Assembly (NCBI RefSeq): GCF_035581365.1
Contig: NZ_CP141590.1
Location: 2,910,001 to 2,974,000 of the forward strand
Direction of reading: 5' to 3'
DNA: 64,000 nucleotides
From: Tsuneonella sp. CC-YZS046
Lineage (GTDB): Bacteria > Pseudomonadota > Alphaproteobacteria > Sphingomonadales > Sphingomonadaceae
In this document: piece after piece, positions 36,959 through 41,217 of the stretch
How the letters are laid out: every line of letters starts with the position of its first letter
Numbering within the stretch: position 1 is the first letter of the stretch
Translations under genes and position numbers: made by a program
The notes under the pieces: model-generated
Seen by the model: only the letters and a program-made list of their open reading frames with translations
Database searches by the model: none
What the model was told of the DNA's origin: nothing

Positions 36959-39214
36959 TTACACCGGACGAAGCGTGGATTCCCCGGCGGACCCGGCATA
37001 GGCCCGCACCAGCCGCGCGACCTCGGGAAGAATCTCCGCGCGCAGCCGGTCCTTGGCCTCGCCGTCCAGCCGGGCCGCTTCCACCGCGGTCGCGATGCAT
37101 TCCCCGATGGCGGCGGCATCCAGCCCGCAATGCTGCATCGCGATCCGGTATTCCCGGTTGAGGTCGGTGTCGAACAGGGCCGGATCGTCGGTGTTGAGCG
37201 TGATCCTGCAGCCCGCCGCGCGCAGCCGGTCCAGGCGAAGCTGCGCATAATCGGGCCGCACCCCCAGCCGGATATTGCTGCTTGGGCAGATATCCAGCAC
37301 CACGCCCTGGTCCGCTATCCGCGCCATCAGCGATGGATCGTCCACCGCCCTGATGCCGTGGGCGATCCGATCCGGCTTGAGCAGATCGAGCGTCTCCACG
37401 ATGCTGGCCGGCCCATCGTTCTCCCCGGCATGGGGATTGCGGCCAAGCCCGTTGCGGGCGGCATGTTCGAAGCAGGCGGCGAAGGGCCGGGCCGGGTGGT
37501 TCGCCTCCGGGCCGCCCAGGCCCAGCGCCACCATGCCGCGCGCGCGCGATTGCGGCAGGCAGGCCCATTGCGCGATTTGCGGGGCCGGGCCGGGATAGCT
37601 GCGCACCAGGTCGGCGATCCAGCGCAGCTCGATGCCGAATGCTTCGCGCACCCGCGCCCGTCCGCGATCGAGCGCGGCGAGGATTCCGTCCAGCCCGATC
37701 GCGCGGTTGAGATAGAGCTGGGGGGTCCACATCACTTCGGCATAGCGGACACACGACGCATGGATCAGCTCGCCCAGCGCGAAGGCCGCATCCTCGAAAT
37801 CGCGCGGATTGCGCAGGCAATGGGCATTGAACAGGATGCGGTTCGCGAAAGCGGCGAAATCCGCGTAGGAGGCCGGCTTGAAGAAGCTGGCCGGGTCCTT
37901 GAACGGCAAGGGAATCCTGTGCCTCTGGGCAAGGCCCTGGGTGAAATCGGGCGACAGCGCGCCTTCCAGATGGAGATGCAGCTCGACTTTCGGCAGGCTC
38001 GCGACGAAATGGGCCAGCGATTGCGGCGGCTCCGCCACGCTATCGGGAACCGCGCGCGGGGTTGCAGGCGCGGGCGGGGCGGCGTTGGGCAGGCTCGCCA
38101 GCGCTGTCTCGATGGCCTGCGTCGCGGGCAGGGTCGCCAGCGCGGAGAACATCCTGCGCCCAGCCAGGATCGCCTGGGTGCGTCGGGCTTCATGCGCCGT
38201 GTCGAGGAAGGCGCCGAGCAGCGGCTTCAGGCCCGCCAGCGCCGCGGGGGCATTCCTGGCGAGCTGTTCGATGAGATAGGGCTTGTGCTTCTCCCACGAG
38301 AGATGTTCCATCACCTGCGCCAGCTTGTCGCGGATGGAAGCGGGCAGCGTGCCCGCCATGCCCTGGCCGGTCAGGACCCGGTAATGGGAAATCTGGGTGC
38401 TGTTGGTGGGCGGAAGCAGGATGACCGGCGTGTCCTGGCTGATCGCCTCATACACCGCGCCTATTCCGGGCGTGCTTATCAGCAGTTCCGCCTTGCCGAT
38501 CGCCTCGGCCGCCTGGACCGGGCTGACCGAACCGAGGATTGTGGCCCGCTCCACTCCGGGGATATGGCGAATGGCATAGGGATTGCCCAGGAACGAAACC
38601 TCGCCGCGCTTCTCCATGGCCGCCTCGAGCGTAAGGCCAAAAAGCAGGATGACCGCTTCCCGGAAGGGAACCCCGACATCGGTCGGCACCGCCATGCCGC
38701 CGGTGTGGATGACGATGCCGCGCTTTTCGCCCTGCCTCGCGCCGCGATGGATGATCGGCGCCACCGCCGTGACCTCTGGCGGCAATGTTTGCGACAGCGC
38801 GCCTTCAAGGGCGGGATAGTCCTGCACCAGATGCGCGAGCAGCCCGGCGGAGGCCTGAATCTCGTCCACCTTGCTGCGCCAGTGGGTCAGGCTGTCGACA
38901 AGGATGGAGCGGCCGGCCAGGCCGATTCTCGCCAGCCGCGCCATGGCGACCATCTGGTTGACCGCGATGAATGCATCGAATCCGGCCAGAGACGCGCGAT
39001 CATGGAATACGTCGCCGAAGGCGCCGTTCACCAAGGGCACATCCGGCTGGGCATTGGCTTGCAGAAACTCGGCGGCGTCGCCCGAGATATTGATCGTGAC
39101 GGAATGCGTCCGCCTCAGCTCCTCGGCTATCAGCCATGCCTTGGAGGCAGGTCCGAAGCCGATCGGAGCGGCGGTTATCAATATGTTGCGTCGCGCAGGC
39201 GGCGCGCCCGTCAC
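36959..39214 (-). CDS. Fusion of a GT-B-like domain and an adenosine-deaminase-family domain
   Basis: 751 residues from a GTG at 39214 that overlaps the stop of the CphA-like gene (GTGA). Residues 9-320 look like a GT-B/UDP-glycosyltransferase-type fold: start NILITAAPIGFGPASKAWLI and donor-site-like region AELLISTPGIGAVYEAISQD. A Pro/Ala linker (about 375-398) follows. Residues 405-745 are a metal-dependent deaminase: HLHLEGAL (H413, H415), GLGGPE, HAGEND (H595, E598), RIAHG (H619), NTDDPALFDTDLNREY (D676, D677). The GLGGPE and TLNTDDP motifs resemble aminodeoxyfutalosine/adenosine deaminases. The substrate is unknown; a modified nucleoside or nucleotide sugar is inferred. Confidence 0.8.
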   Translation of the reverse strand: MTGAPPARRNILITAAPIGFGPASKAWLIAEELRRTHSVTINISGDAAEFLQANAQPDVPLVNGAFGDVFHDRASLAGFDAFIAVNQMVAMARLARIGLAGRSILVDSLTHWRSKVDEIQASAGLLAHLVQDYPALEGALSQTLPPEVTAVAPIIHRGARQGEKRGIVIHTGGMAVPTDVGVPFREAVILLFGLTLEAAMEKRGEVSFLGNPYAIRHIPGVERATILGSVSPVQAAEAIGKAELLISTPGIGAVYEAISQDTPVILLPPTNSTQISHYRVLTGQGMAGTLPASIRDKLAQVMEHLSWEKHKPYLIEQLARNAPAALAGLKPLLGAFLDTAHEARRTQAILAGRRMFSALATLPATQAIETALASLPNAAPPAPATPRAVPDSVAEPPQSLAHFVASLPKVELHLHLEGALSPDFTQGLAQRHRIPLPFKDPASFFKPASYADFAAFANRILFNAHCLRNPRDFEDAAFALGELIHASCVRYAEVMWTPQLYLNRAIGLDGILAALDRGRARVREAFGIELRWIADLVRSYPGPAPQIAQWACLPQSRARGMVALGLGGPEANHPARPFAACFEHAARNGLGRNPHAGENDGPASIVETLDLLKPDRIAHGIRAVDDPSLMARIADQGVVLDICPSSNIRLGVRPDYAQLRLDRLRAAGCRITLNTDDPALFDTDLNREYRIAMQHCGLDAAAIGECIATAVEAARLDGEAKDRLRAEILPEVARLVRAYAGSAGESTLRPV

Positions 39215-41217
39215 GCTGCCTCCGCGGCCGAACGGGCCTTGCGGGCTTTCGATGGGCCGGATGCGGCCGGAAGAGAGCCGGTGGTCAGATAGGCGAATGC
39301 CGCTTCGGCCAGCCGCCGCGCCGGCCCGGCCGCGCCCTTCCCGTCGATCGTCCGGCAGGGCGCATGATCCTTGAGGTAGCGCGCGGCGGCGAGGCAGGCC
39401 GGAGAGCTTCCGTCGGCCATGACCTGCCGGGGTTGCAGCCATCGCGCCGACCGGGCGAGCTGGAGCATGGTTTCTTCGGTAGCCGCGGTTTCCGCTTCTC
39501 CATTCCCGGCCAGGACGATCAGGTCCACCCTGTCGAACGGCCAGCTGTTCCCGGCGGCGTCGGAACTGGTCGAAAGGACGATGGCGTCCACCTCGGGGTC
39601 CTGCATCAGGGCGCGGCCGCCCTGGAAGAGGGTGAGCGGTTCGCCGCTTATCGCCGTTCCGCCGATCCTTGCCTGTTCCCAATTGGACAGCCCGGCGCCC
39701 GGCCAAGCGGTGCGCATCCGTTCATGCAGGGCGGTGCTCACCGTTTCGCCCGGGCCGGGCGAGAGCACGAGGGCAATGGGAATGCGCCCATCGGTTCCGT
39801 TGAACAGGCTCCGCAGCATCGGCTCGTGCATCGTCGTGAACATTTGCGGCTGGGCATTCACCTCGCAGATGATGGCCCCGGAGGACAGCCAGCTTGCGCC
39901 GATGTCGGGAATCAGAAGATCCACTCCCGCCACATCGAGCCGCAAGGTCCGCACCGCCCGCTTGGCGAGATCGATGTTGTCCGGATGGGCCGCCTCCACC
40001 GGAACCGGCCTGGGAATGCCGCCGCTGGCGACGTTCGCTGCGCCCCGGAGCCGGACGAACGCGCCCTTTGCCGGAACCGAGGACGATTCCAGCCCGGCAT
40101 GGGCCAGCATCGCCTCCGCATCCTCGTCCCATTCGATGGGGTGAAGGTGGCGGCGGTCGTCCGTCGCGGTGGCGCGTTCCCGGTTCTGGCGCTCCACCAA
40201 TTGGCGGATCGTGTGCTTCCCATCGCCGGTCACGCCGCCCGGCTCGCGTTCCAGAATGCCATGGACTTCGCCATTGACGAGCTGGATGCGGTAATCGCGC
40301 CCGATGAAATGCTTTTCGACCAGGATCAGGCCGGAATGGGCCTTGGCGCGGTCGAATGCCTTGCGCACGGCGTTTTCGTCGAGCAGGTAGGCCGCGACGC
40401 CCACCCCGCCGTCGAGATCGCCCGGCTTGACCACCACCGGGTATCCCAGCTGGCTGGCGATCTGCGCCGCCTCGTCCGCGGACCTGGCCAATTTATGGCT
40501 GGCGACCGGAAGGGCGGCCGAGCGCAGAACCTGCGAACCCAATTGCTTCTCGCGGGCTATGCTGGTCCCGATCTGCGATGTGCGATCGGTAAAGGAACTG
40601 TCGAGCAGGCGCGACGCGGCGCCATGACCGAACTGGATATGGTTCGGGGCAAGCCGGAACCATGGGATATTGAGCGAATGGGCCGCGGCCAGGAAATGGA
40701 ATGCGTTGAAACCCTGGAGCACGCCGTGCCTGACCGCCTTGGCGTATTTCTCCGCCAGGCTTTCCAGGGAAGCGGCCAGATTCTCCGGTTCCGCCTCGCC
40801 GGATTGCGCGGCCGCGCACAGCAGTTGCATCGCGAGATCGATGGAGGCGACGCAGGCGTTGAAATTCCCGCAAGGCTGGATCACCGTCCAGATATCGGAA
40901 TCGTCTGCATCGTCCTTGAAGATCAGGCTGTCTTCGAGGATGACGTGGCCGCTTGCCTCCAATATCGCCCGAACCCATTGCACGACATGGACGATCCGGA
41001 AATCCGCATCGGCCACGTCGGGCACCGGCTTGACCGGCCCGAAGCGCCGGGTGACGAAATCCTCCACCAATTCCACGATGCTTGCGGGCACGGCTGCGCT
41101 TTTTTGCAACCGGGCGAGCAGGGATGGCTGCCGCAGACCGCGCGTATATCCCATGACACCGATGGCATTGCCCACGCGCTGGACAACTCTCACGCTTGTT
41201 TCCGCCGCTTGGCTCAC
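39211..41217 (-). CDS. Cyanophycin-synthetase-like ATP-grasp protein with degenerate, shortened Mur domain
   Basis: 668 residues. Residues 1-195 match the CphA N domain, ending in NHIQFGHGAASRLLDSSFTD. An ATP-grasp domain spans about 218-475: SIAREKQLGSQVLRSAALPV, YPVVVKPGDLDGGVGV, GRDYRIQLVNGEVHGILERE, GDGKHTIRQLVERQN, LHPIEWDED, CEVNAQPQ. In CphA a Mur-ligase domain of several hundred residues with TGTNGKTT follows. Here only about 145 residues remain, and the P-loop position reads IALVLSPGPGETVS, so ATP binding there is unlikely. CphA1 proteins are about 870-900 residues. It probably forms amide bonds with its ATP-grasp domain only. Coupled to the GT/deaminase fusion. Confidence 0.8.
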   Translation of the reverse strand: MSQAAETSVRVVQRVGNAIGVMGYTRGLRQPSLLARLQKSAAVPASIVELVEDFVTRRFGPVKPVPDVADADFRIVHVVQWVRAILEASGHVILEDSLIFKDDADDSDIWTVIQPCGNFNACVASIDLAMQLLCAAAQSGEAEPENLAASLESLAEKYAKAVRHGVLQGFNAFHFLAAAHSLNIPWFRLAPNHIQFGHGAASRLLDSSFTDRTSQIGTSIAREKQLGSQVLRSAALPVASHKLARSADEAAQIASQLGYPVVVKPGDLDGGVGVAAYLLDENAVRKAFDRAKAHSGLILVEKHFIGRDYRIQLVNGEVHGILEREPGGVTGDGKHTIRQLVERQNRERATATDDRRHLHPIEWDEDAEAMLAHAGLESSSVPAKGAFVRLRGAANVASGGIPRPVPVEAAHPDNIDLAKRAVRTLRLDVAGVDLLIPDIGASWLSSGAIICEVNAQPQMFTTMHEPMLRSLFNGTDGRIPIALVLSPGPGETVSTALHERMRTAWPGAGLSNWEQARIGGTAISGEPLTLFQGGRALMQDPEVDAIVLSTSSDAAGNSWPFDRVDLIVLAGNGEAETAATEETMLQLARSARWLQPRQVMADGSSPACLAAARYLKDHAPCRTIDGKGAAGPARRLAEAAFAYLTTGSLPAASGPSKARKARSAAEAA

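Follow-up and report, generated by a model that had tools for sequence, protein, structure and literature searches.

Within the window, i.e. the whole stretch of 64,000 nucleotides of Tsuneonella sp. CC-YZS046 DNA that was analysed, two overlapping genes lie on the minus strand. The first (39211..41217) encodes a CphA-like ligase of 668 amino acids, identified by open reading frame, family matches, active-site residues, phylogenetic position and fold model, while the second (36959..39214) encodes a 751-residue fusion of a putative glycosyltransferase (GT) with an adenosine deaminase (ADA), assigned by open reading frame and family matches. Both open with GTG; the ligase stop and the fusion start share the tetranucleotide GTGA, and a ribosome site, GGAGG, is positioned directly upstream of the second start. 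Codon-position G+C supports both frames as genes, and the overlapping pair of the original prediction was confirmed in position and junction. The two proteins likewise turned out largely as described, with similarities to CphA1 (phmmer E 4e-59) for the ligase and to a deaminase (E 2e-45) for the ADA half of the fusion, which rule out chance as their cause.

On the same strand, the pair is preceded by genes for PhoX, a CysQ-like phosphatase and CysNC, and a gene for a GGDEF protein lies downstream. A scan for sigma-70 promoters at the locus returned no site. Neither a transporter nor a regulator nor an additional biosynthetic gene adjoins the pair, hence any route encoded here must start from compounds of primary metabolism. 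One further genome of the genus was sampled (67% complete); there, other genes come after CysQ (locus L163, G301:C504; 79% identity over the 183 CysQ residues present on the contig), so that the stretch from PhoX through the ligase to the fusion is variable. Since this genome also lacks any match to the GT-ADA fusion, and its three ligase matches are all placed by the tree closest to other paralogs and not to the window ligase, the two-gene unit looks like an acquisition at the strain or species level.

The ligase comprises an N domain, an ATP-grasp G domain (about residues 165-462), a collapsed remnant of the Mur domain (about 480-600) and a low-confidence tail. In family searches it comes nearest to the cyanophycin synthetase models, with scores far under their cutoffs (TIGR02068, 258 vs 850 bits; NF010623, 275 vs 877 bits). 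The predicted replacement of TGTNGKTT by SPGPGETV in a shortened Mur region was borne out: the motif occupies residues 486-493, the Mur P-loop (GTNGKT) is absent, and the part from EVNAQP to the end measures 217 residues as opposed to about 475 in CphA1. A full N domain beside ATP-grasp signatures had also been claimed; the N domain is borne out by the fold model but only weakly by sequence. The predicted structure (pLDDT 81) matches the folds of CphA1 (TM about 0.7) and CphA2 (7ta5, TMt 0.69) and displays the N domain, whereas the sequence of this domain is weakly recognisable, the HMM match begins at residue 105, and HVVQW is found at residue 77 instead of HxxEH. The Cx19HxxEH site of the N domain occurs in 83% of CphA1 and is thus not strictly required.

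In the numbering of TeCphA1 (PMC9427784), positions 215, 267, 309, 323, 394, 396, 456 and 458 of the ligase are occupied by S, G, R, R, N, A, Q and F, respectively. Thus R309, R323 and N394 are kept (R310, R324 and N395 in the ligase's own numbering), while E215, H267, S396, G456 and R458 are lost. In CphA1, R309 serves carboxylate activation to the acyl phosphate and two residues among the R309/R323/N394 set hold the beta-carboxylate of Asp; E215 contacts the Arg side chain of cyanophycin, H267 is the P-loop His, G456 the oxyanion Gly and R458 the alpha-carboxylate Arg (PMC9427784). Because the residue binding the Arg side chain is lost, a polymeric product, as envisaged in the original prediction, finds no support, and owing to the loss of Arg458 and Gly456 the acceptor may not be aspartate. 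Judged by its sequence, the protein is a single-site ATP-grasp enzyme from which the Arg-adding Mur site has gone.

A maximum-likelihood tree places the ligase in a family of short CphA-like ligases, which is supported at 99/99 and split from CphA1 and CphA2 at 95/97. Together, residues and tree indicate that it belongs to neither group; plain CphA1 or CphA2 identity is thereby ruled out, and the earlier view that this is not an ordinary cyanophycin enzyme is sustained. A plain CphA2, one of two outcomes that had been named as removing most of the novelty, was considered in particular. The ligase could then re-polymerise beta-Asp-Arg beside an unrelated fusion, and its similar length, the inactive Mur part and a predicted fold that is also near to CphA2 would be accounted for. 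On the contrary, G456 and an acidic side chain at position 215 are retained in CphA2, whereas the window ligase has Gln and Ser there, the tree positions the ligase outside the CphA2 clade, CphA2 is described as cyanobacterial (PMC10206079), and a sister ligase adjoins a sister ADA in Undibacterium (see below), all of which render this explanation highly improbable.

The departures from CphA1 characterise the short family as a whole. Among 28 aligned short ligases, R309, R323 and N394 are invariably kept, while H267 is found in 0/28, G456 together with R458 likewise in 0/28, and E215 is lost in 28/28. Mur-bearing homologues (n=72), on the other hand, have G456 and R458 in every case and H267 in 69/72. 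The Mur part is collapsed throughout the short family, several members of which reside in the host genome, and so this feature cannot be upheld as special to the window protein. Besides the window ligase, the host genome contains five ligase matches: three clear short-family paralogs, a divergent one nearer to CphA2 in the tree, and a weak one. Across genomes, short ligases have as neighbours one of two types of class I methyltransferase, a chorismate-binding enzyme, a P450 or an ADA, and related short ligases tend to share the type of partner. A search of a literature library for clusters of short CphA-like ligases or for combinations of ligase, ADA and GT found no description.

Several further arrangements within and around this family deserve mention. 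At L039 (4161-10014; G000:C1 about 2092160-2098013) a paralogous short ligase overlaps a gene for a chorismate-binding enzyme, with TauD and class II aldolase genes nearby; the ligase and the chorismate gene are also present in the same-genus genome (L044). At L041 (5387-8126), and likewise at L047, L049, L067, L069, L073, L074 and L076, a methyltransferase gene is conserved upstream of the short ligase; these methyltransferases share 45-58% identity across Sphingomonadaceae, Halomonas, Thauera and Pseudidiomarina, forming a recurrent two-gene unit. In the host genome, a 346-residue protein devoid of Pfam matches is encoded directly behind a divergent CphA-like ligase (L040, 6301-7341). A Cyanobium contig (L079, 3866-8338) carries a longer CphA-like gene, Mur domain included, immediately ahead of a short ligase, and a similar double exists in L080. 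Lastly, the long CphA-like proteins of L081 (4054-6792) and L115 (4622-9358), which score well under the CphA cutoffs, branch beside the short family (95/97) and may represent intermediate stages of Mur-site loss.

The closest relative of the window ligase in the genome collection stems from Undibacterium fentianense (39% identity, E 2e-129), where the ligase gene is followed by a methyltransferase gene and then by a stand-alone ADA gene, the GT half being absent. Both ligases are sisters in the maximum-likelihood tree (100/99) and have ATDDRRxLHPI in common, in a stretch where the others differ. In parallel, the fused ADA and the Undibacterium ADA share 45% identity and are sisters (99/99) on long branches of the ADA tree, while the identity of the fused ADA to Sphingomonadales ADAs is at most 38%. 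Since sister ligases adjoin sister ADAs, the association of ligase and ADA is genuine, albeit uncommon. One of 295 genomes of the Undibacterium family has the pairing, and a profile of the pair's ligase run against 395 genomes of the phylum produced no other close relative among its top-ranking matches, most matches being longer frames; in all, two ligase-ADA loci were found. The proposed linkage of the pair in relatives hence stood for ligase and ADA, with sister partners, but not for the exact combination of ligase and GT-ADA fusion, which was found nowhere else in the genomes searched. As a methyltransferase takes the place of the GT in Undibacterium, the latter would be a lineage-specific step that the shared ligase-deaminase core does not need.

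The deaminase half of the fusion (about residues 405-751; 36962..38002, minus strand), assigned by motifs, TIGR01430 and phmmer, retains HLHLEG (413), HAGE (595), AHG (618) and NTDDP (674), that is, its metal and catalytic residues, and exceeds the adenosine deaminase cutoff of TIGR01430 (245.1 vs 216.55 bits), which bears out the complete metal-dependent deaminase that had been predicted. The nearest solved relative by sequence is 3ou8, listed as 'adenosine deaminase' in the PDB table, which we take to be PA0148. This protein is an adenine deaminase (PMC6629668).

Because the fusion holds the only ADA match found in the host genome, a role in purine salvage is possible, and the Undibacterium genome, too, contains no second ADA at the cutoff used. 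A housekeeping salvage enzyme that was fused by accident, in an operon devoid of a joint product, is nevertheless improbable given that sister ligases accompany sister ADAs in two bacterial classes, and given the clade's own ADA signatures (GLGGPE and HAGENDGP) and the GTGA coupling. The ADA domain also matches the PADLOC model CARF_ADA (3.7e-28) and, weakly, RdrB, which would be in keeping with a phage-defence unit deaminating nucleotides like RADAR or CARF-ADA (Cad1). Of the profile, however, this match covers positions 253-601 alone, which are its ADA part, and a CARF domain is absent; moreover, the ligase matches no defence model and the N-terminal half of the fusion is a GT relative. With a generic ADA match as the only resemblance, and neither a CARF domain nor an RdrA/RdrB partner found, phage defence was ruled out as an identity for the pair, and a defensive function is given next to no credence.

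The GT half (residues 1-395; 38030..39214, minus strand) is distantly related to cytosylglucuronate (CGA) synthase. The GT-B-like character ascribed to it earlier proved weak by Pfam (0.027), whereas the CGA-synthase families match better (TIGR04469, 1.9e-6; TIGR04467, 8e-4, with 18.7 bits vs a cutoff of 300). Its motifs are GFGPASK (19), HTGG (170), STPGxxxxxE (247) and LLPPTNSTQ (266), and a single-sequence structure model reached only pLDDT 39, too low to inform on the fold. Relatives are scarce: 300 Sphingomonadales genomes contained no full-length relative and one weak partial match, the genome collection together with phages, plasmids and viral contigs yielded a single remote relative, on a plasmid, 399 genomes of the phylum contributed one more (G585), and the GT profile matched no PDB sequence. 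These two remote relatives themselves match TIGR04467 (5.4e-21 and 5.7e-11; 75.2 and 42.2 bits), and among the genes around them are those for DegT aminotransferases, a GNAT-histidine phosphatase fusion and MFS carriers. The closer one, on a Streptomyces microflavus plasmid, has DegT aminotransferases and a nucleotide hydrolase of the LOG type beside it, a setting that resembles nucleoside-antibiotic clusters. MilC, the CGA synthase of the mildiomycin route, couples hydroxymethylcytosine with UDP-glucuronate (PMC11784345). Hence the GT half is probably a nucleobase glycosyltransferase, and the link to a nucleoside or sugar at which the original prediction hinted gains substance from its proximity to nucleobase-glycosylating enzymes.

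The surroundings of both relatives are of interest in their own right. The plasmid locus (L046, NZ_CP054927.1, 7550-18136) combines the CGA-synthase-like gene, annotated as 'hypothetical', with genes for the LOG-type hydrolase, two aminotransferases, a GT and an asparagine synthase, and is likely an uncharacterised nucleoside cluster. L147 (G585:C33, 102-10323), from a Pseudomonadota genome, holds a CGA-synthase-like gene, a DegT aminotransferase, the GNAT-histidine phosphatase fusion, an MFS carrier and a radical SAM protein with a weak match to BlsE, and is possibly a peptidyl-nucleoside cluster.

The reading we favour, to which we attach slightly less than an even chance, is a translationally coupled two-gene operon that makes a small purine-derived amino-acid conjugate. 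The deaminase, whose nearest solved relative by sequence is the adenine deaminase PA0148, would turn adenine into hypoxanthine, either as such or within an intermediate. The GT would then couple this unbound base with an NDP-sugar, much as MilC does with a cytosine and UDP-glucuronate, yielding an N-glycoside that could bear a carboxylate. Finally, the ligase would activate a carboxylate as an acyl phosphate and join an amino acid to it, forming a single amide and no polymer; the amino acid is probably acidic, since the two CphA1 residues holding the beta-carboxylate of Asp are kept. In Undibacterium, the same ligase-deaminase core would operate with a methyltransferase instead of the GT. The family assignments and the linkage follow from sequence, while we infer the order of steps and the identities of sugar, base and amino acid. 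The low score of the GT half against the CGA-synthase cutoff, its absence in Undibacterium, the restriction to two ligase-ADA loci, the lack of adjoining pathway genes, the possible salvage role of the sole ADA and the loss of Arg458 and Gly456 speak against such a pathway.

Alternatively, the substrate of the ligase-ADA core may be a preformed adenosine metabolite (adenosine, SAH, MTA or a nucleoside carboxylate). Late tailoring would then fall to either the GT or the methyltransferase, and the GT would not form the bond between base and sugar. This would agree with the exchange of GT for methyltransferase in Undibacterium, with the score of the ADA half above the adenosine deaminase cutoff and with the free change of short-ligase partners between clades; yet the nearest recognisable family of the GT consists of nucleobase N-glycosyltransferases and among solved deaminases the adenine deaminase PA0148 comes closest in sequence, so that we regard the use of a preformed adenosine metabolite as somewhat unlikely. 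For the favoured conjugate pathway, we tentatively advance the more specific proposal of a new class of minimal nucleoside-amino-acid pathways, in which a CphA-derived single-site ligase would attach an amino acid to a hypoxanthine or other purine N-glycoside supplied by a CGA-synthase-like GT-deaminase fusion, amid an undescribed short-ligase family that swaps its partners.

A ligase family now annotated as cyanophycin synthetases has thus, by residues and tree, departed from cyanophycin chemistry. Its small operons with changing tailoring enzymes point to a set of uncharacterised amide-forming pathways in Proteobacteria and other phyla, among which the window pair would be the first to involve a purine and base-glycoside chemistry. 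The unit is built from known folds, the family is broad and misannotated, and both enzymes are small enough for direct assay.

With respect to known systems, the ligase resembles CphA1 (7wac, 7lg5 and 7lgm, the latter being the A. baylyi enzyme) in its N and ATP-grasp architecture, its predicted fold and the R309/R323/N394 set, but differs by the missing Mur active site and HxxEH, the replacement of H267, E215, G456, R458 and S396, an NAQPQ motif and its separate clade. With CphA2 (8fxh, 7ta5) it shares a single site, similar length and a degenerate Mur part, whereas its G-domain signature, clade and non-cyanobacterial origin are different. To CGA synthase (MilC; TIGR04467, TIGR04469) the GT half is tied by FGPxS, GG, PG(x)nE and LPPxNxxQ, motifs in common with its two relatives that match TIGR04467, although the GT half remains far under the equivalog cutoff, is fused to a deaminase and has no pyrimidine-pathway genes nearby. 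Adenine and adenosine deaminases (PA0148, TIGR01430) have all catalytic motifs in common with the fused ADA, which scores over the family cutoff but forms its own subclade with the Undibacterium enzyme and is GT-fused and ligase-linked. Finally, peptidyl nucleoside antibiotics of the mildiomycin type offer a parallel in base N-glycosylation by a CGA-synthase-type enzyme combined with amino acid attachment, whereas the pair described here comprises two genes only, with a CphA-derived ligase and a purine deaminase in place of cytosine chemistry.
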